A stretch of DNA of 36,144 bases from the IMG/VR virus record IMGVR_UViG_3300004807_000007, positions 1 to 36,144 of that record; one strand, 5' to 3'. This document shows positions 1,780 through 36,144 of the stretch, piece by piece. This stretch comes from a virus. Position numbers and translations under genes: made by a program. The notes under the pieces are model-generated. The model ran no database searches. It saw nothing but the letters and a program-made list of their open reading frames with translations, and was not told the DNA's origin. The stretch's first letter is position 1; every line of letters starts with the position of its first letter.

Positions 1780-1782
1780 ACT

Positions 1783-2058: not shown

Positions 2059-2066
2059 CATAAATA
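2059..2066 (+). promoter_or_regulatory. T4-late-like promoter box CATAAATA
   Basis: CATAAATA directly follows the stop of the preceding gene and continues as ATAAATAAACTTAT, a 14-base string found identically at 34032-34045 before another small gene. The ATG of the downstream gene is at 2092, leaving a short leader (TATAATATAGGACAAGC) that contains AGGA as a possible ribosome-binding site. Confidence 0.55.
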
Positions 2067-2091
2067 AACTTATAATATAGGACAAGCAACA

Positions 2092-2687: not shown

Positions 2688-2688
2688 T

Positions 2689-3111: not shown

Positions 3112-3470
3112 TGGCATTAAGTACATCAACAAACATTTATCCAATTGGCAATTCAGTGTTTATTGGAGCAACCACAGCCAGTCAACAGGTTTATGTTACA
3201 GCACCAGGCTCTAACATTTCAGCTTTGTTAATTGAAAACCTAGATGCTACCAATGATGTGTTTGTAAACTACAGCACAGGCTCAACCAGCACAGCCACAG
3301 TACCTACCACTGGCACACCACAACCTGGTGTTGCTGTACAGGCCAATTCAAACAAGGTCATTAACATTGCCGCAGTTGGAGCCACATTTGATTCAAACGT
3401 AACTGTCAGCCTGGCATTGGCAATACCAGGAGCAACAGCCGCTAACGTATTAATTACACCAGTGGTATAA
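3111..3470 (+). CDS. Small beta-rich protein, possible head decoration protein
   Basis: Protein of 119 residues dominated by Thr, Val, Ala, Ser and Asn in alternating patterns (LLIENLDATNDVFVNYS, VNIAAVGATFDSNVTVSLAL-like strands), which predicts a single beta-sandwich. It is the only clearly beta-rich protein in a cluster of basic small proteins. Size, fold type and place before the head genes would suit a capsid decoration or head-fibre protein; this is inference and no sequence family is recognised. The start overlaps the preceding stop by one base. Confidence 0.7.
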   Translation: MALSTSTNIYPIGNSVFIGATTASQQVYVTAPGSNISALLIENLDATNDVFVNYSTGSTSTATVPTTGTPQPGVAVQANSNKVINIAAVGATFDSNVTVSLALAIPGATAANVLITPVV

Positions 3471-3479
3471 GGACACACA

Positions 3480-3674
3480 ATGGAACACAAATCAAAAGGA
3501 CGAATGTGGATCGCAGGTGCCGTCAAGCATCCTGGTATTCTACACAAAGAGTTGCACGTGCCCAAGGGCGAAACTATTCCTGCTAAGAAATTAAAAGCCG
3601 CAGAGAAGAAAGGTGGCGTGATTGCTCGTCGTGCTCACCTAGCAGAAACATTGAAAGGTTTCCATAAAAAATAA
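3480..3674 (+). CDS. Small basic protein, widespread phage family, 64 aa
   Basis: Sixty-four residues with the pattern WIAGAVKHPGILHKELHVPK followed by GETIPAKKLKAAEKKGG and ending AHLAETLKGFHKK. Short proteins with this KHPG-LH-EL plus IPAKKL signature occur in many unrelated phages, to my recollection always as unknown. Strong positive charge suggests nucleic-acid or acidic-partner binding. AAGGACACACA upstream is a fair ribosome-binding site. Another member of the basic small-protein cluster. Confidence 0.78.
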   Translation: MEHKSKGRMWIAGAVKHPGILHKELHVPKGETIPAKKLKAAEKKGGVIARRAHLAETLKGFHKK

Positions 3675-3676
3675 TT

Positions 3677-4012
3677 ATGGCAAAAGTATACATAGAACAA
3701 CATTCATCAGCAGATCGTCCTGATCGTCGTGATGAAACACGTGGTCGTAATCCACACGCTCGTGACAACGTTAATGTCGCACAAGGTCCACGTGTAGGTA
3801 ATACAGGTGCACACAAGGCCAAACGTGGCCGTTTCTTGGATCAGAAAGCAGAACGTCAACCCCTAGCAGATATGGTAGAACGTGCCTTTGCTAGACGTGC
3901 TGGAGAACTAGAAGCCAATCCAGGCGAACACGAAATACCTGGCGAAGGTGGCATTGACTCAAATAGTCAGATCAAGCGTTTTGCCGCACGTAAGAACAAG
4001 TACAAAGATTAA
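3677..4012 (+). CDS. Small Arg/Lys-rich protein, 111 aa, unknown
   Basis: Protein of 111 residues, rich in Arg, Asp, Glu and Lys; N-terminal half with DRPDRRDETRGRNPHARDN and a basic patch near residue 47 (AHKAKRGR), then a helical middle (ADMVERAFARRAGELEA) and a basic C-terminus. No family recognised. It starts two bases after the preceding stop and is the last gene of the small basic cluster, directly followed by a hairpin terminator. Confidence 0.7.
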   Translation: MAKVYIEQHSSADRPDRRDETRGRNPHARDNVNVAQGPRVGNTGAHKAKRGRFLDQKAERQPLADMVERAFARRAGELEANPGEHEIPGEGGIDSNSQIKRFAARKNKYKD

Positions 4013-4032
4013 CCTACCTTAGGGTTACAGTT

Positions 4033-4064
4033 TGGGCGTCTGTAAAATGCCCACATTTTATTTT
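4033..4064 (+). terminator. Intrinsic terminator after the small-protein cluster
   Basis: TGGGCGT (4033-4039) pairs with ATGCCCA (4047-4053), with one G-T pair and a seven-base loop, followed by CATTTTATTTT. It lies between the stop at 4012 and the start at 4076, so it separates the small-protein cluster from the packaging and head module. Confidence 0.75.
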
Positions 4065-4075
4065 AAGGAACTGTA

Positions 4076-4795
4076 ATGAAAAAAGAAACACGAACTCTAG
4101 AACCCGCATTCGCGGAATCACATCCACAAGCAGGAAAACCAGTAGACCTAGGCTTTGATTTAGAAGGCCTAATGAGTGATTTTCCTACGGCACGTGAATT
4201 AGAAAAGTTTGTATTTGATCAAACTGGCGTAGTGCTAGATCTCAAAGGTCGTAGCAACAAGGTCAAATATCAAATTGCACTTGATGTATTAAATGGTGCG
4301 GCTCCGCCAGCGGCTGTGTTAGGCAAAGAAAATCCCTATGTGGACAAGAATGAAATTGTGCCTATTGAACCACCTAAGAATATTCCACCACGTGAAAATG
4401 TAACTCCAGTGGCACAGTTTCAATGTGATACATTCCCACATCCAGACAAAGAATGGTCAGCACAGGGACAAAAGTGTTCAGTAATATTCCGCAAATACAT
4501 TGACAACATCATTACCTATGAAATCATTGGTCCTATGGCTTTACGTGCTGTTGGATCACGTATTAATAAATTTGGACAAAACACTCCAGAAAAATATGTA
4601 TGGGTTGATCCACGCACAGGCGAACAGGTCATTCAAGATGATCGTGGACGTCTAACTCCTATTGGCACACGCTTAAAAAACTTTATGAGCAAGATGAAAG
4701 TTGGCAATAAGACACAATGGGAAACCTGGATTGACCGTGACTTTGTTTTGGGTGGTGATAGTGCTGCCGCATTAGATAATCCTTGGAATGTCTAA
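4076..4795 (+). CDS. Unknown protein of the packaging module, 239 aa
   Basis: Protein of 239 residues, soluble and mixed alpha/beta, not recognised. N-terminal third helical (SDFPTARELEKFVFDQTGVV), a Pro-rich linker near residues 97-107 (VPIEPPKNIPPRENVTP), then a C-terminal region with WVDPRTGEQVIQDDRGRLTP and aromatic residues. AAGGAACTGTA precedes the ATG, the same ribosome-binding cassette used by many small genes here. It ends TAATG, coupled to the next gene, and sits two genes before the large terminase, so a role in packaging or head assembly is possible but unproven. Confidence 0.8.
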   Translation: MKKETRTLEPAFAESHPQAGKPVDLGFDLEGLMSDFPTARELEKFVFDQTGVVLDLKGRSNKVKYQIALDVLNGAAPPAAVLGKENPYVDKNEIVPIEPPKNIPPRENVTPVAQFQCDTFPHPDKEWSAQGQKCSVIFRKYIDNIITYEIIGPMALRAVGSRINKFGQNTPEKYVWVDPRTGEQVIQDDRGRLTPIGTRLKNFMSKMKVGNKTQWETWIDRDFVLGGDSAAALDNPWNV

Positions 4796-9071: not shown

Positions 9072-9431
9072 ATGATTGAAAATAACGTTGTAGAAGCGTT
9101 TAACAACCGCTTGACTATTGATCTTAACAACATCAAAAAGATGACTCCAGGTCAATTGGACCGTGTTAAGGAATTAGGTAGTCAGGCAGAGAATTTATTA
9201 AAGAACAAAGACTTTGCGTACTTTGTTCATACATTCAAATTTGAATGTGTTGATGTGTTAACAGAGATTAACACACATACTGAAGCAGATAATGCTCAGC
9301 GAGTTGCCGTTAGCAACCAACTTGCTGGGATAGATGGGTTCATTAAATCGCTCAAACGAGCTGTTTATTTTAGGAACCGCGTGGTAAGTCAACAATCAGG
9401 TCAAATGACTACTGAAGACCCCATAGCGTAA
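9072..9431 (+). CDS. Helical protein between portal and scaffold, 119 aa
   Basis: Protein of 119 residues, strongly helical (LDRVKELGSQAENLLKNKDF, then VAVSNQLAGIDGFIKSLKRA), with no membrane segment and no family I can name. It has its own CATAAATA box and the AAGGAAATGAA ribosome-binding cassette. The place between portal and scaffold suggests a head-assembly or internal head role; a product of unknown function is common at this site in small podoviruses. Confidence 0.8.
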   Translation: MIENNVVEAFNNRLTIDLNNIKKMTPGQLDRVKELGSQAENLLKNKDFAYFVHTFKFECVDVLTEINTHTEADNAQRVAVSNQLAGIDGFIKSLKRAVYFRNRVVSQQSGQMTTEDPIA

Positions 9432-9449: not shown

Positions 9450-10643
9450 ATGGATACTATTGTTGCTGACATACCTAATGTCCCTGTGGACACGGTCCCT
9501 GTCAAAGAAGCCAGTGTTGGATTGGATGCAATAGCTCAGAAAATGGCCGCAATGCGTAACCAAATTCAAGCTACCATACCAGCTGGGACAGGTTCTTCTG
9601 ATGAGGCAAAAGCAGAAGCCCCTGTGGCACCCAAAGGTGTTGAGGTAAAGGAAGAGATTCCTGAGAACGATACCAATTTGATTGAGCCAGAAGTTGCAGA
9701 ACCAGAAGCAGAGTATGGTGAAGACAGCATTGATGAAGGTCTAGCCCCACAAGAAGAACTTGAGGTAAGCGAACCAGATTCAACAGAAGCAGAAGTTATT
9801 GATTTCTTAGAGTTTGCAGAAAACAACCCTAACGCTAAATTCAAATTTATGCGTAATGGTAAAGAAATTGAAATAGATGCTAAAAAAGCTGCCGCTATAT
9901 TAGGTCAAGGTGCCGCAATTAGTGAAGAAGCAAGACAGTTAAAAATTCAGAAGGCTGAATTTGATGAATATTTGACATCAAAGAAAGCTGAGACTGATGG
10001 TTTAATGTTAGCGATGGAATTTACAGTACGCCCACAGTTACAAAAAGCGTACGATGAGGTTATTAAGGTACAACAATACCAAAATACCTTTAGACAACAA
10101 TTAGCACAGACTCAAGATCCTGTACAACAGGCTCAGATTCAAGCTAATATGCAACAGAATGATAGATACCTACAACAAATTGGTCAAACTATCAATCGTC
10201 TAAAGCCTAATTTGGAACAGTTTTACCAATTGCGTAGTAATCAGGTTCGCGAAATTCTTGATACTAACCGCAAGCAATTCCAAGACAAGGAATTGCGTAA
10301 TGCGGCTATCTACAATGAAGTTCGTGAAAAGGTAAGTAAGGGTTGGTCAGCTGCCAAGAACCAATTGGTTCCAGGTGTTGATAACTTAGATCTAGTAACA
10401 AGTGATGAGCATATCTTATCCTTGATACGAGATGGTCTAAAGTATCGTGATCGTCCCAAGGCCAAGGCCGCTGGTAACAGCATTGCCGCACTAACTACTC
10501 GCAAAACCGCAGGTTCCATTAATCCAGGCCGTCAGCAGGATAACGTGTCTAGTCTTCGCGAACAAGCCAAGCGTGGCGACACAAAAGCCGCAGACAATCT
10601 ACTAGTAGCTCAATTAGCGGCGCTAAGAGCACAACGTAGATAA
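9450..10643 (+). CDS. Scaffolding protein
   Basis: Scaffold proteins guide capsid assembly and leave or are degraded before packaging. The 397 residues are acidic and low-complexity in the first third (EVAEPEAEYGEDSIDEGL and similar, about residues 60-125), then Gln-rich and helical (QKAYDEVIKVQQYQNTFRQQ, about 195-214), with a basic C-terminus (LAALRAQRR) of the type that contacts the capsid protein. It lies between the portal region and the major capsid gene, with a strong AAAAGGAG site. Identification rests on composition, length and position, not on a conserved motif. Confidence 0.8.
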   Translation: MDTIVADIPNVPVDTVPVKEASVGLDAIAQKMAAMRNQIQATIPAGTGSSDEAKAEAPVAPKGVEVKEEIPENDTNLIEPEVAEPEAEYGEDSIDEGLAPQEELEVSEPDSTEAEVIDFLEFAENNPNAKFKFMRNGKEIEIDAKKAAAILGQGAAISEEARQLKIQKAEFDEYLTSKKAETDGLMLAMEFTVRPQLQKAYDEVIKVQQYQNTFRQQLAQTQDPVQQAQIQANMQQNDRYLQQIGQTINRLKPNLEQFYQLRSNQVREILDTNRKQFQDKELRNAAIYNEVREKVSKGWSAAKNQLVPGVDNLDLVTSDEHILSLIRDGLKYRDRPKAKAAGNSIAALTTRKTAGSINPGRQQDNVSSLREQAKRGDTKAADNLLVAQLAALRAQRR

Positions 10644-13554: not shown

Positions 13555-16500
13555 ATGGCCAACGTTTCAGTAGGAAGTACACCAGGTTTATATATAGGAT
13601 CTGGTTCATCCACAATATTAAATAATGCTCAACAATTAAATTCGTTGTTGGCCAATAGTAGTAGTGTTGGATTTTATTTAACCAATTCTAATCAATCAGA
13701 AACTGCTGTAGTATTAGCATCTGGAGTTACCGCTGGATCATTTGGTAATGCTACATATTATCCAACATTTACTGTTGGCGCAGATGGTCGCTTAACTGCG
13801 GCTGGTGCGATTCAATCAGCCGCGGCTAACACCTATGGCAATGCCAACGTAGCCGCTTATTTGCCAACAGATCCAACGTTTACTGGATATCTAACATACG
13901 CCAACGCCAATGCGGCAAGCCAAGCGGTAAGCATCAATACAATCAATGCTAATCTTGGTGCATTTGAAATTTATGCCAATGCTACATTTGGTACAAGTAA
14001 CTATGGTAATGCCAACGTAGCCGCTTATTTGCCAACAGATCCAACGTTTACTGGATATTTAACATACGCTAACGCCAATGCGGCAAGTCAAGCCGTAAGC
14101 ATTAACACAATTAATGCTAACCTTGGTGCATTTGAAATTTATGCCAATGCTACATTTGGTACAAGTAACTATGGTAATGCCAACGTAGCAGGTTATCTAC
14201 CAACTTACACAGGTAACATTGGTGCAGGCAACGTTAATGTATCAGGTAATGTTATAGCCAGTTATCATTTAGGTAATGGTGGCAAATTAACTAGTTTAAC
14301 TGGAGCTGCCGCTGGCACATACGGTAGCGATGTATTAATTCCAAGTATTGTTGTTGATGCAACAGGACGTATTACACAAATTACTACTAATGCTATTTCA
14401 GGTGGTGGCAGTTATGGTAACGCTAACGTTGCCGCATATCTATCTAGCAATACAGTTACAACAATTTTTACAACTGGTAATATTACAACCAGTGCCAACG
14501 TTAATGCCACTGGCAATTTCTATGGCAATTTGATTGCGGCCAATATTTTAGTAGCCAACATTGGTATCCAATCTTATACAACATATCAAACTGCAACAAC
14601 ACCTCAGTATAGTAAAGGTGTAGTATGGTATGACAACACCCAAGACAGTTTAGCCTATTACAATAGCGTGACCAATAATGAAGTTAACATTGGTCAAGAA
14701 ACACAGTTCCAGGCTTATAATAACACTGGTTCAACTATTGTTCAAGGCGCTCCTGTTTATATTAATGGATCATTTGGATCCTGGCCTAATATTGCATTAG
14801 CACAAGGCAATAATTTAACATCAGCACAAGTAGCTGGTGTTGCTAATCAGGCTATTCCAGCTGGCTCATATGGTTATGTGGTTTCATCAGGTACAGTAGC
14901 TAATATTTTATTAGTCTCATATTCCGCTGGCGATAACTTATATCTAAGTAGCACCACTCCTGGAGTCTTACAAAATTTTGCTCCATCAACAGGTTATGTA
15001 ACTCGTGTTGGTGTTGTTAGTTACAATGGCGCACAGGGTCGTTTTATAGTCAGCTTAATAAATCCAGTTAATAATCAACAATTTGGTAACTTGACCTTAA
15101 CAGGCAATTTGACAGCTAATAATGCAAGCATTACTAATCAACTATCAACAGGTAGTGTATTAACTTCTGGAGCAGTAACCGCTGGTAATTTGATTACTAC
15201 CAATGGTGTATATTGGGCCAACGGGGTAAGTTATGCATCAACAATCCCAGGCACTTATGGCAATACGCAAGTAGCCGCTTATTTGTTAGCTCCAGGACCA
15301 ATTGGCAGCGGTACACCAAATACAGGTGCGTTTACTACCTTGGCTGGTACATTATCAACTGCCGCACAAACAAACATTACATCAGTTGGCACATTAACTG
15401 GTCTAACAGTTAGCGGTAATATCAGTGCAGGCAACGTGGCAGTTACTACAAAAACACAAACTGGAAGTTTATATACTACTAATGGTGTATATTGGACAGG
15501 TAATGGTGCCGCCTATTCAACAGGTGGCGGCAGTTCATTTACTGGTGATCTAGCTGGATCTATTTTAGATGACAGCACCAACAATCGTATATTTGCCAAT
15601 GCTTATCCATTAAGCACACCAGTAGCAACCTGGAACGGCAACGTATTCATTAACCAAATTGCAGTTAAACCAACTTATTCAGGTGGTGCATTACAACCAC
15701 CTAGCAGTGGTAATCAAATTGGTCAAATTGTTGGTCAAGTAGTATCAGGTAACATTGGTTACCAAAGCCGTTATGGTACACAAACAAGTGCCCAAACAAT
15801 GATGGGTTACTTGCAGTCGTGGCCTGTTACTGCCAACACAATGAACAACAACGATCGCATTCGTGCTATTCAAGGTGTTAACGAAGTTAACCTAAACGGT
15901 TATACTTGGGGCTCAATGACTACCGCAGCCAATACAGCAACAACTTTAGTTGGTACAAGTGGTTTAAGCCAAATTGTTGGTTCAGGTCAGGCTGGTGCGG
16001 TCATTGGAACGCTAGGTGCTATTATTAGTATTCCAGTAACAGGATCAGCAAACATTCAATATGCCACAAACTTTATGGCAACAACCAGTTACAATGCTAC
16101 CAATGCATACACAGCAAGTAATATTGCTTATGCTCGTATGTTGGGCGGCACACTACAACAAACTGGTAATTTAACAATACAAAATGCTGTTGGTCTACAT
16201 ACCACAACAGGTTGGGCTACTGCCACAAACAAATATGTGGTATTGAATGATGACCCAACCAGCGTAATCCAAACATCTGGTAACGTTGCTGTTACTGGTA
16301 ACTTGCAGATGCAGGCCTACCAAGAAACTGTAGTTGCTACTGGATTTACTGGTGGTGCTTGGACAGCTAACGTTGCGGCTGGAACTGTTCAATCAGCTAC
16401 TTTAACTAGCAATATTAGCAGTTTGACGTTTACTAATATGCCAAAAGGTGGATCAGTAACATTAATTATTACACAAGGTGGATCAGGTAGTTACACATTG

Positions 16501-16629
16501 ACCACAACTGGTATCAAATATGCTGGTGGTAGCAATACTTTATCAACAGCAGTTGGTGCCATTGACATACTAAACGTATTATTTGATGGCACCAATTATT
16601 ATGCTAGTTTGGTCAAAGGATATGCATAA
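13555..16629 (+). CDS. Long repetitive tail fibre protein, 1024 aa
   Basis: Receptor-binding or fibre protein of 1024 residues, rich in Asn, Ala, Thr, Gly and Val, almost without Cys, with many beta-type repeats. YGNANVAAYL or close variants occur five times (from about residues 94, 150, 206, 286, 568); the first two repeats are identical over most of 56 residues. Segments like NLTLTGNLTANNASI and VSGNISAGNVAV suggest a trimeric beta-helix. The C-terminus (GGSGSYTLTTTGIKYAGGSN to YYASLVKGYA) resembles the end domains of phage fibres. A fair ribosome-binding site (AAGGA) precedes it; the stop overlaps the next ATG. Confidence 0.8.
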   Translation: MANVSVGSTPGLYIGSGSSTILNNAQQLNSLLANSSSVGFYLTNSNQSETAVVLASGVTAGSFGNATYYPTFTVGADGRLTAAGAIQSAAANTYGNANVAAYLPTDPTFTGYLTYANANAASQAVSINTINANLGAFEIYANATFGTSNYGNANVAAYLPTDPTFTGYLTYANANAASQAVSINTINANLGAFEIYANATFGTSNYGNANVAGYLPTYTGNIGAGNVNVSGNVIASYHLGNGGKLTSLTGAAAGTYGSDVLIPSIVVDATGRITQITTNAISGGGSYGNANVAAYLSSNTVTTIFTTGNITTSANVNATGNFYGNLIAANILVANIGIQSYTTYQTATTPQYSKGVVWYDNTQDSLAYYNSVTNNEVNIGQETQFQAYNNTGSTIVQGAPVYINGSFGSWPNIALAQGNNLTSAQVAGVANQAIPAGSYGYVVSSGTVANILLVSYSAGDNLYLSSTTPGVLQNFAPSTGYVTRVGVVSYNGAQGRFIVSLINPVNNQQFGNLTLTGNLTANNASITNQLSTGSVLTSGAVTAGNLITTNGVYWANGVSYASTIPGTYGNTQVAAYLLAPGPIGSGTPNTGAFTTLAGTLSTAAQTNITSVGTLTGLTVSGNISAGNVAVTTKTQTGSLYTTNGVYWTGNGAAYSTGGGSSFTGDLAGSILDDSTNNRIFANAYPLSTPVATWNGNVFINQIAVKPTYSGGALQPPSSGNQIGQIVGQVVSGNIGYQSRYGTQTSAQTMMGYLQSWPVTANTMNNNDRIRAIQGVNEVNLNGYTWGSMTTAANTATTLVGTSGLSQIVGSGQAGAVIGTLGAIISIPVTGSANIQYATNFMATTSYNATNAYTASNIAYARMLGGTLQQTGNLTIQNAVGLHTTTGWATATNKYVVLNDDPTSVIQTSGNVAVTGNLQMQAYQETVVATGFTGGAWTANVAAGTVQSATLTSNISSLTFTNMPKGGSVTLIITQGGSGSYTLTTTGIKYAGGSNTLSTAVGAIDILNVLFDGTNYYASLVKGYA
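13834..14001 (+). repeat. 168-bp tandem repeat in the fibre gene, unit 1
   Basis: Unit of 168 bases (56 codons) starting TATGGCAATGCCAACGTAGC, repeated at 14002-14169 with only scattered, mostly third-position differences; a partial third unit starts at 14170. The frame is kept, so repeat number can change without breaking the fibre. Confidence 0.9.
14002..14169 (+). repeat. 168-bp tandem repeat in the fibre gene, unit 2
   Basis: Second unit, starting TATGGTAATGCCAACGTAGC, followed at 14170 by the first part of another unit before the sequence diverges at GTAGCAGGTTAT. Confidence 0.9.
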
Positions 16630-29813: not shown

Positions 29814-30048
29814 TTGCTAGTATTAGGCCAGCAAGTTCAAACTGGCCACCTTCTACTCCAACTCCATTTTCCAACATTTCAATTTCCACTCTGTCTGGAT
29901 AGTCTGGATCTGTTGTTATTCTAACATCGTATAAGTCCATAGTTCGTCCTTTTATACCTTCATTTAACCAAGCAACCATTTGTTTGTTTTTCTTTTCTTC
30001 TATGTAGGCCGCCTTTTGTCTAGCGGCTACTTCTTTTATATTATTCAT
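29785..30048 (-). CDS. Small unknown protein, last gene of the minus-strand operon, 87 aa
   Basis: Eighty-seven residues: a basic helical start (NNIKEVAARQKAAYIEEKKN), a beta-type middle (YDVRITTDPDYPDRVEIEML) and a helical end. No family recognised. The start overlaps the methyltransferase stop by four bases (ATGA), so it is translated with it. Its end overlaps the plus-strand gene at 29640 tail to tail by 29 bases. Confidence 0.7.
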   Translation of the reverse strand: MNNIKEVAARQKAAYIEEKKNKQMVAWLNEGIKGRTMDLYDVRITTDPDYPDRVEIEMLENGVGVEGGQFELAGLILAIKKFYNENY

Positions 30049-30746
30049 TTGTAAGCAAATATTTGATCGTGTATAATAGCCTGTACCTGGTAACCTACTC
30101 CACGTAAACGTTGCATTAAAATTTGTCTATTTTTTTCTAAGTTACCAGGCCAAGGTTCATCTGCACGACTAGTTTGATGTACTTCAATAAACCAACTGTC
30201 AACACGATCTGCTACTTCACGTAAACGCAATATATCTAATGCTAACATTTCGCTGCCTTCAATATCACATTTGACGAAATCTACGTGGTCTACATTTAGT
30301 TCATCCAAAATAGTTTTAATTGTTTTGGCAGGTACAGTAATACATTCACCAGACTGGTTAACAGTCAAACTGTTAATAGTTGGATTATTGTGTACATAAA
30401 AATCTACTGTGCCATCTTTGAATGCCAGTGCGGCTTCAACTATTTCTATGCGAGTTCCCACTAACCGTTTAAGAATGCGTAAAGTAGCAGGTGTTGGTTC
30501 AACAGCAATAATTCTACTAGCACTATCTTGTGCATACAAACTAAACAGACCAATATTAGCACCAATGTCTACAATGACCAAATTGTTTTTGTCAGCCAAC
30601 ACAGCATTGTATAAACCTTCTGTATTAATTTGATTAACAATAATATCAGTCATTGTTTCTTGTGGCCTAGCAAACCAATCTGCCACCGCAGGATCTGATA
30701 AATCTAATTCAATTTCACGACCCTTGGTTGTAATAATTTTAGTCAT
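30045..30746 (-). CDS. FkbM-family SAM-dependent methyltransferase, 233 aa
   Basis: FkbM-type enzymes transfer a methyl group from S-adenosylmethionine, often to sugars or other small hydroxylated compounds. The SAM site is clear: VIVDIGANIGLFSL (57-70, the glycine-rich loop), then AVEPTPATLRIL (81-92), and the characteristic FVKCDIEGSEML (157-168). Length fits the family. It overlaps the co-chaperonin gene by eight bases and the next gene by four, within a minus-strand operon opposed to all the structural genes, suggesting an accessory, host- or glycan-directed function. The substrate is unknown. Confidence 0.87.
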   Translation of the reverse strand: MTKIITTKGREIELDLSDPAVADWFARPQETMTDIIVNQINTEGLYNAVLADKNNLVIVDIGANIGLFSLYAQDSASRIIAVEPTPATLRILKRLVGTRIEIVEAALAFKDGTVDFYVHNNPTINSLTVNQSGECITVPAKTIKTILDELNVDHVDFVKCDIEGSEMLALDILRLREVADRVDSWFIEVHQTSRADEPWPGNLEKNRQILMQRLRGVGYQVQAIIHDQIFAYK

Positions 30747-31002
30747 CCTTGACTACACCTAAAATATGATCAGCGTGAATAACAAAATATTCTTTGCCGT
30801 TGACTTTGACTTTGATAACATTATTCCAGTTAACCAAAACGTTGGTACCAACAGCAATAGGATTGCTTATAACATCAGGTCCAATGCTGACAATTTTAGC
30901 TAATTCATTTTCATCACTGCGTTGGATAATAATACCACCTGCTGTTTCTTTTGTTTGCCCTAGGGCTTCAATAATATAATTCTTGTTTGCGGCTTCAATC
31001 AT
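30739..31002 (-). CDS. GroES-like co-chaperonin, 87 aa
   Basis: Co-chaperonins cap the GroEL ring. The mobile-loop segment TKETAGGIIIQ (about residues 17-27) matches the ETKSAGGIVL loop of GroES, and the following strands (LAKIVSIGPDVISNPIAVGT, VNGKEYFVIHADHILGVV) match the rest of the fold. It is shorter than GroES (97 residues), mainly because the roof hairpin is reduced. No GroEL is present, so it would have to work with the host GroEL, as T4 gp31 does for folding its capsid protein. It lies one base after the acetyltransferase stop and overlaps the methyltransferase by eight bases. Confidence 0.8.
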   Translation of the reverse strand: MIEAANKNYIIEALGQTKETAGGIIIQRSDENELAKIVSIGPDVISNPIAVGTNVLVNWNNVIKVKVNGKEYFVIHADHILGVVKDD

Positions 31003-31003
31003 T

Positions 31004-31522
31004 TCATTCTCCTATTTTCTTGTAAGCTATGCTACCTCTAACTACGAATCCAAATTGTTCGTGTAATCGCATAAAAGCAGTTTGATCTGCTCTAATGCTA
31101 CTGCTGGTCAATACTGGAATGTTCCAGCATTTACACCAAAAGATCCATTGTTCTAACGTCTGTGCTACTAGTGTTATACGTTGTCTTAGACTCAATGTCA
31201 AGTCTACGTGTGCGAATTCTGCTGTGGCCAGTTCTTCTACAGCATACACAGTATACTTGCCACGTTCAAGCCAGGCCCAGGCAATGACCTTGCCAGTAGT
31301 TTTATCTTTGGCCACTGTGATCAATACCTGGTTAGGTTCAAATGTTTGTTTTAATAATTCTCTATGTATGTGATAGGCCATACGTGGACGATTAGGTTTG
31401 AGTATGCCATCTATTTCTAATTGATAGTTTGCGGCAACCAAATCCAATATGCCTTCAACATCTGTGTGTTGTGCTGGCGACCATTGCCAAGGGTCTGAGT
31501 AAGAGATTGCGTATTTGTTCAT
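31004..31522 (-). CDS. GNAT-type acetyltransferase, 172 aa
   Basis: GNAT enzymes transfer acetyl from acetyl-CoA to amines. The fold is suggested by central strands (QVLITVAKDKTTGKVIAWAW, about 64-83) and by the C-terminal RLHEQFGFVVRGSIAYKKIG (about 152-171), where FGFV and the closing strand are typical. The canonical Q/RxxGxG/A loop is not obvious, so acetyl-CoA binding may be altered. First gene of the minus-strand operon, with AAGGAAATGTA before the ATG and two TATAAATA boxes upstream. The substrate is unknown. Confidence 0.7.
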   Translation of the reverse strand: MNKYAISYSDPWQWSPAQHTDVEGILDLVAANYQLEIDGILKPNRPRMAYHIHRELLKQTFEPNQVLITVAKDKTTGKVIAWAWLERGKYTVYAVEELATAEFAHVDLTLSLRQRITLVAQTLEQWIFWCKCWNIPVLTSSSIRADQTAFMRLHEQFGFVVRGSIAYKKIGE

Positions 31523-31543
31523 TACATTTCCTTGCTATAATTT

Positions 31544-31551
31544 TATTTATA
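31544..31551 (-). promoter_or_regulatory. T4-late promoter consensus TATAAATA (minus strand), proximal
   Basis: Reads TATAAATA on the minus strand (plus strand TATTTATA), 21 bases before the acetyltransferase ATG. It is a perfect match to the T4 late promoter core. The leader would contain the AAGGAA ribosome-binding site. A second copy lies 16 bases further upstream. Confidence 0.55.
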
Positions 31552-31559
31552 CCTTACAA

Positions 31560-31567
31560 TATTTATA
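31560..31567 (-). promoter_or_regulatory. T4-late promoter consensus TATAAATA (minus strand), distal
   Basis: Second perfect TATAAATA on the minus strand. On the plus strand the overlapping sequence reads TATACTAAATA, an 11-base string found again at 32892-32902, so this divergent gap may drive both the minus-strand operon and the HNH gene. Confidence 0.5.
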
Positions 31568-31597
31568 CTAAATAATATTATACACAAAGGAACTGCA

Positions 31598-32206
31598 ATG
31601 GGTTGGACTAAAGGTAAAAAAAGATTAGATTGGGTAGTAGATCGTTGGGTTAACTTGGATCTGTTTTGGAGCAAGCAACAACCTACAGCAACGGGTTGTA
31701 CGGAATGGATTGGAGTAACCAATAACATTGGCTACGGTTTTATTGGATTTGTCTACGCAGAAGGCAAGACCAGTCCTAGCGGACACCGTTCAGGTATGAT
31801 GACAGCACACCGCCTGGCATTTATGGTACACAATGGTCGTGCTCCTACCAAGCGTAATGTAAATCACACGTGCCATAATAAACTGTGTGTAAATCCTGCT
31901 CACCTCACAGAAGGCACACAGCGTGACAAGTTAACAGATATGAAACGTGATGGCATACACGGCGGACCAGCACTGGGATCCAAGCGTGGCAGTTACAATC
32001 GCAAACAAAATCGTGTTTACAAATACACAGAGGAGGACATACAATGGCATCGTACAGCCACCAGTGAAGCCATTGCTGAACGCTATGGCATAAATCTACA
32101 AAAGGCCGCCAGCAAGCGACATCAATTCAGACACGGATATGCTTGGTTGCCAGCACCTCCATATGAACGACTAAAAACAGGTCCCAAGGGCCCACGAAAT
32201 AAATAA
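31598..32206 (+). CDS. HNH endonuclease, probably homing type, 202 aa
   Basis: DNA-cutting enzyme with a His-Asn-His core: AHRLAFMVHNG (His71), then VNHTCHNKLCVNPAHL (88-103) with His90, Cys92, Cys97, Asn99 and His102, the layout of HNH_3-type homing nucleases with a zinc-like Cys pair. The C-terminal third (EEDIQWHRTATSEAIAERYG, about 149-168) looks like a helix-turn-helix DNA-binding part. AAAGGAACTGCA precedes the ATG. Free-standing, between the divergent promoter region and a strong terminator, so it may be a mobile gene or, less likely here, take part in packaging as some phage HNH proteins do. Confidence 0.88.
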   Translation: MGWTKGKKRLDWVVDRWVNLDLFWSKQQPTATGCTEWIGVTNNIGYGFIGFVYAEGKTSPSGHRSGMMTAHRLAFMVHNGRAPTKRNVNHTCHNKLCVNPAHLTEGTQRDKLTDMKRDGIHGGPALGSKRGSYNRKQNRVYKYTEEDIQWHRTATSEAIAERYGINLQKAASKRHQFRHGYAWLPAPPYERLKTGPKGPRNK

Positions 32207-32270
32207 TTGTGTGGGGCATAATATTTCCTGGGTTACCGCCATTACCCTATTTCCTTTTAGGTCCCGCATT

Positions 32271-32308
32271 GAGCCTGGATGCCGTCATTGACATTCAGGC
32301 TCCTTTTT
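32271..32308 (+). terminator. Strong intrinsic terminator after the HNH gene
   Basis: GAGCCTGGATG (32271-32281) pairs with CATTCAGGCTC (32292-32302), eleven pairs with one G-T, a ten-base loop and CTTTTT after the stem. It ends just before the ribosome-binding site of the next gene, so it could also act as an attenuator for that gene. Confidence 0.88.
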
Positions 32309-32320
32309 GAAAGAAATGAA

Positions 32321-32560
32321 ATGACACAACACAAAAGTTTAATACACGTTTTAGAAGATGTAGTCTTGGCCTTAGAAGCAGAAGGTCAAACAGAGCAAGA
32401 CATTTTTAGCCTTGTGAATATGTGCCTGCGTGGTTTTATTAGAGATGGCGAACTTACTGAAGAATACAAAGTTTTGGCACAACAGGCCATTGCTATGCGT
32501 GAAGGTGCTATGAACCGTCCTGTACTGGCAGATAAAAATGGACGTCCATTAGTAGGGTAA
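32321..32560 (+). CDS. Small helical protein, 79 aa, unknown
   Basis: Seventy-nine residues, largely helical (SLIHVLEDVVLALEAEGQTE; EEYKVLAQQAIAMREGAMNR). No family recognised. The ATG at 32321, after AAAGAAATGAA, is preferred over an upstream in-frame ATG at 32279, which would lie inside the terminator stem-loop. The stop codon is part of a long inverted repeat that starts the next non-coding segment. Confidence 0.72.
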   Translation: MTQHKSLIHVLEDVVLALEAEGQTEQDIFSLVNMCLRGFIRDGELTEEYKVLAQQAIAMREGAMNRPVLADKNGRPLVG

Positions 32561-32642
32561 CGCACTCAAGTTTGCTGTATAGTAGGGGGAAAGGACGAAA
32601 ACCCGCTACGCTTCACTTGACAAGGCCCTTCTTATGCGTTAC
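32557..32642 (+). ncRNA. Candidate structured RNA with three nested stems
   Basis: GTAACGCA (32557-32564) is exactly complementary to TGCGTTAC (32635-32642). Inside it TCAAGT (32566-32571) pairs with ACTTGA (32615-32620), and inside that GTAGGGG (from 32582) pairs with CCC-g-CTAC (32602-32609). Three nested helices in 86 non-coding bases suggest a structured RNA or a regulatory leader for the gene at 32695. No known RNA family is recognised. Confidence 0.45.
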
Positions 32643-32682
32643 TATGTTATTTAAGATCGCACAAAAAACTGCCTCCACAAGG

Positions 32683-32689
32683 TTAAATA
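32683..32689 (+). promoter_or_regulatory. TTAAATA box five bases before an ATG
   Basis: GGTTAAATAATTGTATG: the box ends five bases before the ATG at 32695, the same spacing as at 12188 and 23013. No ribosome-binding site is visible between. Confidence 0.4.
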
Positions 32690-32694
32690 ATTGT

Positions 32695-32877
32695 ATGAAA
32701 GTCGTCCAAGATCCATTCAAAACAACAGTAAAAGGCCTCACAGATGCCAATGTTCGCGTGGCCTGTAGTCGCATACAAGATAAGATAGTAATGTATGGCC
32801 TTTGTTCAGATCGTGAATGGGCCTACTATCAACGACACACAAATGGACAAATCAATCAAAAAGAAGCCTTTTCCTAG
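32695..32877 (+). CDS. Small protein, 60 aa, unknown
   Basis: Sixty residues: MKVVQDPFKTTVKGLTDANV, then RVACSRIQDKIVMYGLCSDR and a polar tail. No family recognised. The frame is open further upstream (to 32572), but that part would run through the nested stems and has no ribosome-binding site, so the ATG at 32695, right after a TTAAATA box, is chosen. The stop codon lies within the loop-to-stem region of a terminator hairpin. Confidence 0.6.
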   Translation: MKVVQDPFKTTVKGLTDANVRVACSRIQDKIVMYGLCSDREWAYYQRHTNGQINQKEAFS

Positions 32878-32888
32878 GCTTATTTTTG
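32864..32888 (+). terminator. Intrinsic terminator overlapping a stop codon
   Basis: AAGCCT (32864-32869) pairs with AGGCTT (32876-32881) across six bases, followed by ATTTTTG. The TAG stop of the gene at 32695 is at 32875-32877. The AGTATACT palindrome begins directly after. Confidence 0.75.
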
Positions 32889-32902
32889 TAGTATACTAAA
32901 TA
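32889..32902 (+). promoter_or_regulatory. AGTATACT palindrome overlapping a TAAATA box
   Basis: TAGTATACTA (32889-32898) is a perfect ten-base palindrome; AGTATACT recurs at 33468 and 34933 in other gaps. It overlaps TATACTAAATA (32892-32902), an 11-base string shared with the divergent region at 31564-31574. TATACT would also suit a -10 element. No convincing -35 is seen. Confidence 0.45.
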
Positions 32903-32924
32903 CTTAAGCACAGCAAAGAATTCA

Positions 32925-32989
32925 CTCACGCAACGTGAGCGTTGTAAGGGCCAGGAACGCTGATTTGGCGTGTGCGGTAAATCCAAATC
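32925..32989 (+). ncRNA. Candidate structured leader with three consecutive hairpins
   Basis: CTCACG-CAA-CGTGAG (32925-32939), AGCGTT/AACGCT (32938-32961, sharing two bases with the first stem) and GATTTGG/CCAAATC (32962-32989) follow one another, the last two directly abutting. The segment lies between the AGTATACT site and the gene at 33014. No known family recognised; it could be a leader that controls that gene or a small RNA. Confidence 0.45.
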
Positions 32990-33013
32990 ATCCTAAAACA
33001 TTACAACGAGATT

Positions 33014-33451
33014 ATGACAAACGAATACTTAACATATCAACAACGCAAACAACATTGGCGTCTAGTAGACTGGCTTAAAGAACGAGGCATCACATCTACA
33101 GATTTGGATACACATCCTTGTATTGATGACCTAATTTTGCTGATTAATATTCGTGATGAATTTTGGTCATTAATGACCTTGAGCGAGCAAGCCACTTGGG
33201 GTGCTCAATGGGGATATACCTATGGCAAACGACAGTTTATAAGACCACGGACCCTAGCCAAGTTTGAACGTATAATATTAACAATAAACAACAGAGAACA
33301 ACTCAAAGCTGAACAAAGGCAATACATTAAGGCATTACGCAACGAACAATTAAAACGGAGTCATAATAGTGAAGCGAAAGGGCTCCGCTCGCACAGTTTA
33401 GATACGCGGACTGTGAACAACGAGTGTGCTGTGGATTGCCCATACTTCTAA
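33014..33451 (+). CDS. Unknown protein, 145 aa
   Basis: Protein of 145 residues. First part helical with many Trp (HWRLVDWLKERGITSTDLDT; DEFWSLMTLSEQATWGAQWG), then basic (NREQLKAEQRQYIKALRNEQ). The last 30 residues have a different, polar composition, and the DNA coding for them is rich in short inverted repeats (CACAGT/ACTGTG at 33395-33418), so the C-terminus may have been extended into a structured region. No family recognised. The start lacks a clear Shine-Dalgarno sequence. Confidence 0.65.
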   Translation: MTNEYLTYQQRKQHWRLVDWLKERGITSTDLDTHPCIDDLILLINIRDEFWSLMTLSEQATWGAQWGYTYGKRQFIRPRTLAKFERIILTINNREQLKAEQRQYIKALRNEQLKRSHNSEAKGLRSHSLDTRTVNNECAVDCPYF

Positions 33452-33462
33452 CAAAGTGTGGG
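33439..33462 (+). terminator. Hairpin overlapping a stop codon (weak terminator candidate)
   Basis: CCCATACTT (33439-33447) pairs with AAGTGTGGG (33454-33462), nine pairs with one T-G, loop CTAACA that holds the stop codon. Only TTG follows, so termination may be weak. The layout matches the terminator at 32864: hairpin over the stop, then AGTATACT. Confidence 0.5.
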
Positions 33463-33467
33463 TTGAG

Positions 33468-33475
33468 AGTATACT
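33468..33475 (+). promoter_or_regulatory. AGTATACT palindrome
   Basis: GAGAGTATACTATAGG; the eight-base palindrome lies six bases after a stem-loop and in front of the structured non-coding segment at 33489-33718. It is flanked by TTGAGAG (33463-33469) and CTCTCAA (33488-33494), an inverted repeat that could form a hairpin around it. Confidence 0.4.
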
Positions 33476-33488
33476 ATAGGCAAAGGTC

Positions 33489-33718
33489 TCTCAAGCAATA
33501 ATCTGTGTATCTCTGAAGTGAAGGGGCCCAAGAAGGCTTTTGAGCTTGAGAACTTGTAAGACTCAAATAGATTGTGATCTATTTTGCTGTCCTACGCTCT
33601 CAAGCCCAAGAGTAATTAAAATTTGTTTTGTTAACAATCACATAATAAATCACAACTTCTACGAAGTAGAGGTTGTTTATTATAGTGATAGGTCTTGTAA
33701 AGACCTCTTATTAATAAG
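33489..33718 (+). ncRNA. Candidate structured non-coding RNA / complex leader, about 230 nt
   Basis: Gene-free segment with many perfect stems. TCTCAAGC (33489-33496) and the identical TCTCAAGC (33598-33605) can each pair with GCTTGAGA (33544-33551), so two folds exclude each other. AAATAGAT-TGTG-ATCTATTT (33565-33584) is a perfect eight-pair hairpin. ACAACTTCTAC (33652-33662) pairs with GTAGAGGTTGT (33666-33676) over a GAA loop, extended by ATAATAA/TTATTAT to 18 pairs with a three-base bulge (33642-33683). AGGTCTT-GTA-AAGACCT (33690-33706) and the palindrome CTTATTAATAAG (33707-33718) run up to the ribosome-binding site of the next gene. Not a tRNA and no known family. Confidence 0.5.
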
Positions 33719-33726
33719 GAAATGAA

Positions 33727-34032
33727 ATGAGAACTGTAGATGTAATAGAATCTTTGTCTTATGACAAAGCACATCTTACGCCTAACCAATTAGGTCAAGT
33801 AGTTAATAGTTATACAGATGATGAATGGGCTCGTGTAGCTGAAATATTTCTTAGAGGTATTGGCAAAGAACATCAGGTACCTGGTAAGGTTGTTGGTATA
33901 TGTATGGGTATATGTGACTTCTATCGCGAAACTCAAATGCTAACACATAAACAAAAAATTTGGTTATTGGATCACCTGATCAAACATTGGAACCAAGTAG
34001 GAGTTGTTATGCGTAGTCAATTAATGTTATAA
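33727..34032 (+). CDS. Unknown protein, 101 aa, after a structured leader
   Basis: Protein of 101 residues, mixed helical (VVNSYTDDEWARVAEIFLRG; YRETQMLTHKQKIWLLDHLI). No family recognised. ATAAGGAAATGAA precedes the ATG, with AAGGA at the edge of the CTTATTAATAAG palindrome, so folding of the leader could affect translation. The stop is followed at once by AATAAATA and TATAAT-like sequence. Confidence 0.72.
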   Translation: MRTVDVIESLSYDKAHLTPNQLGQVVNSYTDDEWARVAEIFLRGIGKEHQVPGKVVGICMGICDFYRETQMLTHKQKIWLLDHLIKHWNQVGVVMRSQLML

Positions 34033-34045
34033 TAAATAAACTTAT
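34031..34045 (+). promoter_or_regulatory. AATAAATA box with conserved flank
   Basis: AATAAATA (34031-34038) continues as ATAAATAAACTTAT, identical over 14 bases to 2060-2073. TATAAT (34028-34033) overlaps its left edge and could be a conventional -10. It precedes the gene at 34058. Confidence 0.4.
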
Positions 34046-34057
34046 TAAGGAAATGTA

Positions 34058-34237
34058 ATGACCAAACAACTGGTGCAGAAATTATTGGATGAGATGCGTG
34101 AACAGGCCTACAACGAATGGCTAGGTCTGGACACATTTGAACAAATCAAACGTTTAGGTCAGACAGCGACACCCACAACGGCCACACGCGAATACCTGCG
34201 TGAAATCATAGCTGTACTTAGAAAGCAAAGGCGATGA
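34058..34237 (+). CDS. Small helical protein, 59 aa, unknown
   Basis: ATG at 34058 after AAGGAAATGTA, stop TGA at 34235-34237, giving 59 residues: MTKQLVQKLLDEMREQAYNE, then WLGLDTFEQIKRLGQTATPT and a basic helical end (REYLREIIAVLRKQRR). No family recognised. The next gene starts one base after its stop. Confidence 0.7.
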   Translation: MTKQLVQKLLDEMREQAYNEWLGLDTFEQIKRLGQTATPTTATREYLREIIAVLRKQRR

Positions 34238-34238
34238 G

Positions 34239-34697
34239 ATGACTCCAGACATTATAAGAGGCGGTGAACTAGTACAAACCACAGTTAAAATTCTAAATGA
34301 AATATGTCGCTATGATGGTGGCATAGAAACAGATGATGCTAGAATTTGGGATCATTGGCTACACACACTGACCAATCAAGACTGGCTAGATATGTTGGCT
34401 GCCGTGACAGCAGTCTACGAAGACGCACCTGGCGTATTTTACACAGCAGACACAGCAGTATTTGATCGTGCCAGTAAAGACCTAGCACGTAGCATAGCCA
34501 AAGACAAAGACTTTGTGGGCAGACCTAAGATCCGTGCCAGTGGCAATAAGAACACAGCCTGGCAAACCATTATGCGGATACGTGAAGTTGTTAATCGCTA
34601 TCGTGGACAGAACATACCAAATCGCCCTCCAAGCACGTATGGAGCCGCCAAACCGCCGCCTAACAAGGCCTTTGACGATAACTTTACGCAGGAGTAA
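34239..34697 (+). CDS. Unknown protein, 152 aa
   Basis: Protein of 152 residues with a helical, Trp-containing first two thirds (DARIWDHWLHTLTNQDWLDM; LAAVTAVYEDAPGVFYTADT) and a basic, Pro/Asn-rich tail (RGQNIPNRPPSTYGAAKPPP). No family recognised. It starts one base after the preceding stop and is probably co-translated with it. The basic tail may contact nucleic acid, but this is only from composition. Confidence 0.72.
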   Translation: MTPDIIRGGELVQTTVKILNEICRYDGGIETDDARIWDHWLHTLTNQDWLDMLAAVTAVYEDAPGVFYTADTAVFDRASKDLARSIAKDKDFVGRPKIRASGNKNTAWQTIMRIREVVNRYRGQNIPNRPPSTYGAAKPPPNKAFDDNFTQE

Positions 34698-34711
34698 TCA
34701 TATGCCTAAAT

Positions 34712-34903
34712 ATGGGTATGCCTGCCAAAACACCCCCAGCACCTGAACCAGAATACATACAACTACCAGATGGACGTAGATTTAGAGTCACGGATCTACT
34801 TAGGCCACCCAAGGATAAAATCAGCTACAACCTAAGAACACGCCTAATGTATGGTGCTAGAGGCCGTGGACGTAGTGGTAAAATTCCCCCTAGAGTGTTG
34901 TAA
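34712..34903 (+). CDS. Small basic protein, 63 aa, start uncertain
   Basis: Sixty-three residues: MGMPAKTPPAPEPEYIQLPD, then GRRFRVTDLLRPPKDKISYN and a basic end (RLMYGARGRGRSGKIPPRVL). No family recognised. The only good Shine-Dalgarno sequence (AGGAG, 34690-34694) is spaced for an ATG at 34702 in another frame, which gives just 14 codons (MPKYGYACQNTPST, to 34746) overlapping this gene. Either this gene starts at 34712 or 34718 by coupling, or ribosomes shift from the 34702 frame. Confidence 0.6.
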   Translation: MGMPAKTPPAPEPEYIQLPDGRRFRVTDLLRPPKDKISYNLRTRLMYGARGRGRSGKIPPRVL

Positions 34904-34930
34904 AAAAACCACAGACCAATTAATCCCAAT

Positions 34931-34942
34931 ATAGTATACTAT
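34931..34942 (+). promoter_or_regulatory. Palindrome ATAGTATACTAT (AGTATACT site)
   Basis: Perfect 12-base palindrome containing AGTATACT, in the 68-base gap before the gene at 34972. It is the third and longest copy of this motif. The leader after it holds AAAAAGGAG as ribosome-binding site. TATACT could act as a -10 element. Confidence 0.45.
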
Positions 34943-34971
34943 GCTTATCGTAACTAAAAAGGAGCGGCAAA

Positions 34972-35193
34972 ATGTCATACACAGATACAGTATTAGCAGG
35001 TGATCGTTTGGTAGCAAAACGCAAAGATGATGTAAAAACATTCACGGTAGCCTGGATCACACACAATGACGGTTGGGCTCGCAGTTTAGAACCAATGGGC
35101 TACCACGGTCCAGGTAAAGTATTTAAGATCAGTCGCAGAGGCAACGATGGACGTTTATTTGTTGGTCAGTACAAAGTTGTTGGTAGAATCTAA
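34972..35193 (+). CDS. Small basic beta-rich protein, 73 aa, unknown
   Basis: Seventy-three residues with alternating beta-type strands (DRLVAKRKDDVKTFTVAWIT; GKVFKISRRGNDGRLFVGQY) and a net positive charge, like a small beta-barrel nucleic-acid binder, although no family is recognised. AAAAAGGAGCGGCAAA precedes the ATG. It has its own AGTATACT site upstream and heads a run of small genes. Confidence 0.72.
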   Translation: MSYTDTVLAGDRLVAKRKDDVKTFTVAWITHNDGWARSLEPMGYHGPGKVFKISRRGNDGRLFVGQYKVVGRI

Positions 35194-35205
35194 GGAGGCC
35201 GCAGA

Positions 35206-35382
35206 ATGAAACCCAATCAAGATCGTTTAGATTCAGACTTAGAACTGTTAGATCTAGCTAGTGAACGAGCACGTCAGGCACTAGCACAAAACACACAGTA
35301 TCTTGTGCGACACGCAGAACGCATACTCAAAGCTACCAAACAACTTGAATTATTGGTTAAAGAGTTGGAGGCCGCAGAATGA
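35206..35382 (+). CDS. Small coiled-coil protein, 58 aa
   Basis: ATG at 35206, stop TGA at 35380-35382; 58 residues, wholly helical and Leu/Glu/Ala-rich (LDSDLELLDLASERARQALA; HAERILKATKQLELLVKELE). No family recognised. AAGGAGGCCGCAGA before the ATG is an unusually strong Shine-Dalgarno sequence; a 16-base copy (GGAGGCCGCAGAATGA) recurs at the end of this gene as the start region of the next one, which it overlaps as ATGA. Confidence 0.72.
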   Translation: MKPNQDRLDSDLELLDLASERARQALAQNTQYLVRHAERILKATKQLELLVKELEAAE

Positions 35383-35552
35383 CTTGGGAATATATGTTTT
35401 ATAGAGAGCCAAATCCATTTCAACACAAGTTGGATGGACAATTAACACGCAAATTATTACTAGAGGATCTTAATAGATTAGGTTCAGAAGGATGGGAAGT
35501 TATTAGATATAAAGATTCAGAGTATATGCTAAAAAGATTGATTAAAACCTAG
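35379..35552 (+). CDS. DUF4177-like small protein, 57 aa
   Basis: ATG at 35379, stop TAG at 35550-35552; 57 residues. WEYMFY at the start, LLLEDLNRLGSEGWEVIRYK in the middle and YMLKRL at the end match the pattern of DUF4177 proteins (short beta-alpha-beta, with LN.LG.EGWE), whose role is unknown. It overlaps the preceding stop by four bases and ends with the shared IKT codons and ATTAAAACCTA sequence. Confidence 0.72.
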   Translation: MTWEYMFYREPNPFQHKLDGQLTRKLLLEDLNRLGSEGWEVIRYKDSEYMLKRLIKT

Positions 35553-35581
35553 TATCTCCTTAGACATTTGACCTAGGTTTA

Positions 35582-35602
35582 CAGATCTACGCAGAAGATC
35601 TG
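35582..35602 (+). other. Hairpin CAGATCT / AGATCTG
   Basis: CAGATCT (35582-35588) pairs with AGATCTG (35596-35602) around a seven-base loop. It lies seven bases before the conserved hairpin copy B and has no counterpart in copy A, so it is an insertion or lineage-specific addition. Confidence 0.5.
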
Positions 35603-35604
35603 CT

Positions 35605-35647
35605 TGTGGCCCTGCTCTAAGACAGCGACAGCGGGGCATTTTCTTGA
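35605..35647 (+). terminator. Conserved hairpin, copy B (probable terminator or processed RNA end)
   Basis: GCCCTGCT (35609-35616) pairs with AGCGGGGC (35630-35637); the 13-base loop differs from copy A at two positions, and ATTTTCTTGAC follows in both. At the last stem pair, T-A here replaces C-G in copy A; at two other pairs only G-T exchanges are seen. It follows the DUF4177-like gene, as copy A follows the gene ending at 759, with ATTAAAACCTA and TCTCC upstream in both. Confidence 0.65.
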
Positions 35648-35660
35648 CTATAAGTATGTA

Positions 35661-35816
35661 ATGACAGCCAACACCATTCCAGGTACACAAACAACACCGT
35701 TTGGCATAGTGATTACAGATATAAAGATCTTTTACAGTCACGCTGAAAGAACCATTGATTTGGTAGAGATGCGTAGATTGTGGATAGATAAACAATTGAC
35801 TCGCAAAGATCAATAA
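35661..35816 (+). CDS. Small protein, 51 aa, unknown
   Basis: Fifty-one residues: MTANTIPGTQTTPFGIVITD, then IKIFYSHAERTIDLVEMRRL and WIDKQLTRKDQ. No family recognised. The ATG at 35661 is chosen; an upstream in-frame extension to 35604 would run through the conserved hairpin. The ribosome-binding site is weak, so confidence is moderate. Confidence 0.5.
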   Translation: MTANTIPGTQTTPFGIVITDIKIFYSHAERTIDLVEMRRLWIDKQLTRKDQ

Positions 35817-35858
35817 TGTATAATATACATATAGTTTAACACAAAGGGAGAAGAGACT

Positions 35859-36144
35859 ATGAGCACCAAATTTTTAGTATTATTTCAAAACGAAATACAA
35901 GTAGACAAAGACCCAGACTGGACATTGAGTTTTGAATTGGGTATGGCATTTGATCAACAAATCTCGCGAGATGAACCCTTACACACACATTATGTATTGC
36001 CTATTCAACAGTATAGTGAACTGCTGTTATGGTTACGCTTGATGAGTTTTGAAACTACTGAATCAGGTAGATTCTTAAAGCATCCTGTGTTAAACATAAA
36101 ACATTTACATTTGGATAGCGTTTTAGATCAATTGTTAGAAATTA
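35859..36144 (+). CDS. 5' part of a small gene that runs across the joint (unknown)
   Basis: ATG at 35859 after AAAGGGAGAAGAGACT, a strong Shine-Dalgarno. It opens MSTKFLVLFQNEIQVDKDPD, continues through MAFDQQISRDEPLHTHYVLP, and at 36144 is cut by the linear end; the rest lies at 1-137. The whole product is 100 residues, mixed alpha/beta, of unknown family. TATAATATACATATAG some 25 bases upstream could supply a promoter -10. Confidence 0.78.
   Translation, partial: MSTKFLVLFQNEIQVDKDPDWTLSFELGMAFDQQISRDEPLHTHYVLPIQQYSELLLWLRLMSFETTESGRFLKHPVLNIKHLHLDSVLDQLLEI
36025..36144. repeat. Right copy of 120-bp terminal direct repeat
   Basis: Identical to bases 1-120 and running to the last base. 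It lies inside the small gene that starts at 35859, so closure of the circle restores this gene. Confidence 0.95.

Follow-up and report, generated by a model that had tools for sequence, protein, structure and literature searches.

The window analysed here, the whole 36,144-nucleotide stretch of a freshwater phage record, carries a 120-bp direct terminal repeat and is apparently a complete genome, with genes for terminase, portal, major head protein and other virion proteins. Its nearest annotated relative by terminase is MW202484.1 (Podoviridae sp. ctfne034, 52% identity). Near its right end, a gap of about 280 bases separates two small plus-strand genes, ORF33014 and ORF33727, and belongs to an accessory module of about 1.2 kb comprising a promoter (P1), a pseudoknot leader, ORF33014, the folded gap and ORF33727. 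Homologues of the module were found in one independent lineage, represented by two IMG/VR contigs (L002 and L003) that are identical across the module and are referred to below as the relative. The features of the locus are as follows.

32889–32898, 33468–33476 and 34932–34941: AGTATACTA sites, all upstream of early genes; probably −10 elements
32892–32897, plus strand: TATACT, putative −10 of promoter P1, assigned from sequence and alignment
32899–33013, plus strand: structured 5' leader of ORF33014, beginning just after the P1 TATACT
33014–33451, plus strand: ORF33014, 145 aa, all-helical by low-confidence prediction; 90% identical in the relative
33439–33462, plus strand: nine-pair hairpin CCCATACTT/AAGTGTGGG, spanning the ORF33014 TAA; −11.1 kcal/mol alone; identical in the relative
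33449–33451, plus strand: ORF33014 stop codon TAA
33463–33494, plus strand: hairpin TTGAGAG (33463–33469)/CTCTCAA (33488–33494); identical in the relative
33468, plus strand: AGTATACT, inside the TTGAGAG/CTCTCAA inverted repeat
33470–33475, plus strand: TATACT in the loop of that hairpin, possible −10 of an internal promoter (P2)
33489 (proximal) and 33598 (distal), plus strand: copies of TCTCAAGC, with a single complement, GCTTGAGA, at 33544
33495–33535, plus strand: weakly structured, mostly unpaired linker; 0 of 41 positions differ in the relative
33536–33612, plus strand: long interrupted hairpin of ~77 nt and ~31 pairs, holding GCTTGAGA and the distal TCTCAAGC
33566–33583, plus strand: AATAGAT/ATCTATT hairpin
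33636–33688, plus strand: A+T-rich hairpin of ~18–23 pairs, −19.9 kcal/mol, terminator-like with a weak U tract; no substitutions in the relative
33642–33683, plus strand: A+T-rich 18-pair hairpin with one internal offset
33690–33706, plus strand: seven-pair hairpin AGGTCTT/AAGACCT, terminator-like; identical in the relative
33707–33718, plus strand: palindrome CTTATTAATAAG, touching the AAGGA of ORF33727 and overlapping its Shine-Dalgarno region; CTTATAGATAAG in the relative
33727–34032, plus strand: ORF33727, 101 aa, all-helical by low-confidence prediction; 88% identical in the relative

All the hairpins, repeats and palindromes that an initial annotation had reported in the gap are present where it placed them. 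Two of its points need correction: the ~77-nt hairpin at 33536–33612 is the strongest single feature, and the conserved stretch begins at about 33329, already within ORF33014. An A+T-rich stretch occupies 33613–33650. An octamer occurring twice with its complement once, as TCTCAAGC and GCTTGAGA do, arises in 1.4% of shuffles. The direct repeats found include no tandem repeats of the kind that mark a type III toxin-antitoxin RNA upstream of a ToxN, CptN or TenpN toxin gene.

The gap folds far better than shuffled sequence, and so passes the folding check that the annotation had called for. The minimum free energy of 33439–33726 is −86.6 kcal/mol, compared with −61.3 ± 5.0 for 200 dinucleotide shuffles (z = −5.0), none of which reaches the observed stability, and the corresponding gap of the relative has z = −6.0. 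The minus strand also folds strongly (−85.8 kcal/mol, z = −6.8), as expected because many of the stems are perfect. When the whole 36-kb genome was scanned in 720 windows, only in the gap did several windows in succession fall below z = −4, and it forms the longest run of strongly folded windows. Isolated strong hairpins were seen elsewhere, at 9101–9250 (z = −6.9, inside an ORF at 9072–9431) and at 13751–13900 (z = −5.5, inside an ORF at 13555–16629), with 20 shuffles each.

Comparison with the relative shows that the gap changes slowly. Ten of its 278 sites differ, compared with 16 of 77 fourfold-degenerate sites in the flanking ORFs (P = 5e-6). Identity is 71% upstream of the promoter, 95% in the leader, 85–90% over the first two thirds of ORF33014, 98% over its last 120 nt, 96% in the gap and 88% in ORF33727; only two sites differ in the last 120 nt of ORF33014, so the conserved element may extend into this gene. 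Eight of the ten gap differences fall at unpaired positions, and the two at paired positions both yield G-U pairs. The annotation had looked to homologous gaps for covariation; the complementary pairs do persist, since no consensus pair is broken (P = 0.12 on a restricted pair set, which is not significant by itself), but covariation within the gap is nil, both paired changes being one-sided. The long hairpin has acquired five substitutions, none pair-breaking, and its free energy, calculated for 33532–33616, is −31.0 kcal/mol in the window and −34.3 in the relative. From the window to the relative the whole plus strand becomes more stable (−86.6 to −91.9 kcal/mol) and the minus strand less stable (−85.8 to −77.7 kcal/mol). 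Measured against random substitutions, P is 0.02 for the strand asymmetry of the long hairpin, 0.05 for its plus-strand stability and 0.055 for the plus-strand stability of the entire gap. The opposite behavior of the two strands speaks for a plus-strand RNA rather than for an antisense RNA or a DNA cruciform. Together these results lend moderate, though not decisive, support to selection on the plus-strand fold. The window and the relative share no reading frame that stays open across the gap.

Unusual folding together with slower change than in the adjacent genes indicates that the gap probably encodes a working RNA, and the designation of candidate novel RNA given in the initial annotation holds, with a strong fold conserved in an independent relative without a broken pair. 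The searched collections contain two independent sequences, the window and the L002/L003 lineage, and the element therefore stays a candidate. The module had no blastn or tblastn match in phage records and no blastn match in plasmids; peptide patterns of ORF33014 and ORF33727, scanned against viral contigs and GTDB genomes, and DNA-pattern scans matched the L002 and L003 contigs only. When the long hairpin and the leader were searched as covariance models in 40 loci and 16 whole records, only the same lineage was recovered, and neither the two proteins nor the two RNA models were found in 14 other related records. Rfam 15 gave no match in the window at the gathering score, and at permissive thresholds (E up to 5) gave only chance-level eukaryotic and archaeal models (E 0.45–2.4); a tRNA/tmRNA search found none.

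A second structured element precedes ORF33014. In the relative, P1 reads TTTACA – 17 nt – TATACT, and conservation between the two sequences starts at the TATACT element. The leader that follows includes a pseudoknot, AGGA-ACGC-TGATTTG-GCGT...CAAATCA-TCCT, along with a hairpin (CTCACG/CGTGAG) and a closing stem (GTTGTAA/TTACAAC). The relative retains all 28 pairs, two adjacent ones through double changes (A-U to C-G and C-G to U-A from window to relative). The chance of at least two compensatory pairs is P = 1.5e-4; in shuffles of the pair counter 126 of 500 reach the observed value, a comparison that has low power with two sequences. The free energy of the leader is unremarkable (z = −1.4) because the pseudoknot lies outside the energy model. 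The leader presents a conserved pseudoknot upstream of a gene, as in a T4 gene 32-type operator. Around it, segments 32789–32809 and 33309–33329 form a 21-nt inverted repeat whose arms, 500 nt apart, are complementary at 20 of 21 positions; none of 300 shuffles has such a repeat. Both sites are altered in the relative and the pairing is lost, which suggests a template-switch copy.

At the thresholds used, PHROGs, Pfam and PADLOC gave no match for ORF33014 or ORF33727; NCBIfam gave a chance-level match for ORF33014 only, and this protein matched no toxin family. The AlphaFold models are poor (pLDDT 44 and 57, respectively), and ORF33014 was not recognised as a single-strand binding protein. Block 32843–34051 is 90.5% identical in the relative and the genes flanking it are more divergent or absent, while other relatives hold different cassettes between the same flanking genes. 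The region is called early here on the basis of gene position and of the small unknown genes. In L015 the slot holds a DUF3987 helicase (E 7e-32) adjoining a primase-like protein (genes at 1748–4186), followed by non-coding DNA at 4187–4480 with GTCAAC/GTTGAC repeats, a candidate origin at the same locus in a close relative. In L044 and L056 it holds proteins of ~515 aa and no known family (1403–2977, 524 aa, and 2566–4104, 512 aa), which are 27% identical to each other. Strong folding recurs in the variable region of several relatives, without detectable homology to the gap; in L077, which has a 123-base end repeat, an apparently non-coding, hairpin-rich stretch of ~600 nt (9830–10440, minus strand) contains repeated AGATGTCAAGAGA motifs, with z down to −5.6. 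We also considered the module as the phage's own replication system, replacing a replication cassette, but this idea is weakened by the complete relatives G004 and G014, which show neither the module nor an obvious replication cassette at the locus. Elsewhere in the window, an 87-aa ORF at 30739–31002 on the minus strand resembles a GroES-type co-chaperonin, judged by eye from its translation.

Our leading interpretation, which we hold tentatively and at somewhat short of even confidence, is that the gap functions as a plus-strand RNA element within an early operon of the phage, most likely acting in cis. A cis role is the likeliest because the element spans the distance from one stop codon to the next Shine-Dalgarno sequence and ends in two terminator-like hairpins. 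In the operon order P1, pseudoknot leader, ORF33014, folded gap and ORF33727, a read-through transcript would carry a row of stable hairpins directly after the ORF33014 stop codon, and this row would separate the two messages and set the output of ORF33727. It might do so through duplex-specific processing of the RNase III type, through polymerase pausing or partial termination at 33636–33706, or by controlling access to the ORF33727 start. Long near-perfect intergenic duplexes, as at RNase III sites, are found at 33536–33612 and 33636–33688, and the latter hairpin is a candidate either for a terminator-like element or for a duplex-processing substrate. Terminator-like sites are frequent in 30000–36144 (11 compared with 3.8 expected), and 33652–33676 and 33690–33706 pass a loose terminator scan; their stems are A+T-rich and their U tracts interrupted, so that neither terminator-like hairpin has a good U tract, which counts against the cis reading. 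The leader would probably serve as another cis-acting site, perhaps recognised by a small protein that the module itself encodes, in the manner of T4 gene 32. The fold, its conservation, the covariation in the leader pseudoknot and the module context are observed, whereas transcription, processing, any effect on regulation and any protein binding are steps that we infer.

The main rival to the cis-acting element is a free small RNA of ~130–205 nt, starting near 33482 from the TATACT at 33470–33475, ending at ~33612 or 33688, and acting in trans on a protein or on messages of the host or the phage. We regard this as possible, though on balance unlikely. The TATACT lies within fully conserved sequence, terminator-like hairpins follow downstream, and AGTATACTA occurs more often in the window than expected (five strand hits, compared with 0.41), its three sites all lying before early genes. 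A palindromic operator was also considered for AGTATACTA, but at P1 the relative does not preserve the left half, and a −10 element is therefore preferred. The invariance of the unpaired linker at 33495–33535 is at least as compatible with a trans-acting or protein-binding RNA as with simple punctuation. Against the small RNA, P2 (CTAACA – 16 nt – TATACT, identical in the relative) scores 9 of 12 to sigma-70 in its −35 and −10 elements, the level expected by chance, the gap contains no strong terminator, and Rfam gave no match. A bistable switch, as proposed in the annotation, is the least probable reading of all; here the choice between the proximal and the distal TCTCAAGC as partner of GCTTGAGA would control ORF33727. 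All copies of both motifs are conserved in the relative, and the proximal pairing is the best or tied fold until the distal copy is made, at RNA ends 33551 and 33596 (not at 33570 or 33590), so that it may have, briefly at most, a transient co-transcriptional role. At equilibrium the switch finds no support: in full-length RNA, starting at 33439 or at the possible start 33482 and running through the end of the gap, GCTTGAGA pairs with the distal copy with a probability of ~1.0. Forcing the proximal pairing costs 6.1 kcal/mol in the window and 11.3 in the relative, and a riboswitch would instead have two exclusive folds of similar stability affecting a terminator or start, not an alternative 6–11 kcal/mol worse. 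The TCTCAAGC/GCTTGAGA pairing also leaves the ORF33727 start site uninvolved, and a second possible switch, pairing loop 33572–33586 with 33641–33655, is broken in the relative by T33575C.

A replication origin, another suggestion of the annotation, or a protein-binding site that works as DNA seems improbable to us. The gap has several palindromes and the A+T-rich stretch at 33613–33650, the scans made of the phage recognised no replication protein, and the same locus of L015 combines helicase and primase-like genes with repeat-rich non-coding DNA. Weighing against an origin, 33449–33726 contains no DnaA box with 0–1 mismatch, none of the other related records tested, complete ones included, carries the module, and the changes within helices preserve G-U pairs of RNA rather than DNA palindromes, with a weakened minus-strand fold. 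It is very unlikely, in our judgement, that the gap has no specific function, its hairpins being chance structures or generic terminators and its low divergence a result of recent recombination. Such a tract, at about 33329–33711, could partly explain the low divergence, which does begin at 33329 within coding sequence and run on into the gap, and single strong hairpins do occur elsewhere in the genome. A recombination tract would not account for the leader, which is conserved separately and with covariation though most of the intervening ORF33014 is only 85–90% identical, nor does chance structure agree with z values of −5 to −6 across 288 nt in both lineages. A broader proposal is a two-RNA, two-protein early-phage system of a new kind, in which the leader and a structured RNA of ~280–380 nt would act with the ORF33014 and ORF33727 proteins, perhaps forming a ribonucleoprotein regulator. 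The slot that such a system would occupy holds a primase-helicase cassette in a relative. We consider this proposal a long shot.

If the cis-acting element works as proposed, an uncatalogued structured RNA, together with a covarying pseudoknot leader, would be added to what is known of this group of small podophages, in several members of which no replication genes were recognised. It would also offer a small system in which RNA-level control of an early operon can be put to the test, and would suggest that relatives exchange the early-region slot as a unit. For the present the element serves as a clearly delimited target for RNA-seq and wider metagenome searches.

The element resembles known intergenic punctuation or small RNAs, with members in two lineages and outside the Rfam families. 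GOLLD, ROOL and similar large structured RNAs of bacteria show kinship with phages. Large structured RNAs of this type occur in metagenomic DNA (PMC12286853), and the gap is likewise a candidate structured RNA in metagenomic DNA; it is much shorter, and Rfam at E up to 5 gives chance matches only. Phage-encoded small regulatory RNAs have been reviewed (PMC12197685), and the gap would resemble them in being a short, folded plus-strand RNA that lies between early genes and may have a promoter of its own; unlike them, it has no family match. In T7-like phages, RNase III processing hairpins and terminators lie between early genes. As in those operons, long intergenic hairpins stand directly before the ribosome-binding site of the next gene, but the gap has several hairpins in a row and an invariant unpaired linker, there is no sequence match, and cleavage of its hairpins is a proposal. 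T4 gp32 represses its own message by binding a pseudoknot of ~28 nt (PMC535899). The ORF33014 pseudoknot differs from it in make-up, and the likeness covers the leader rather than the gap, but the leader, like the gene 32 operator, places a pseudoknot upstream of a small phage gene.
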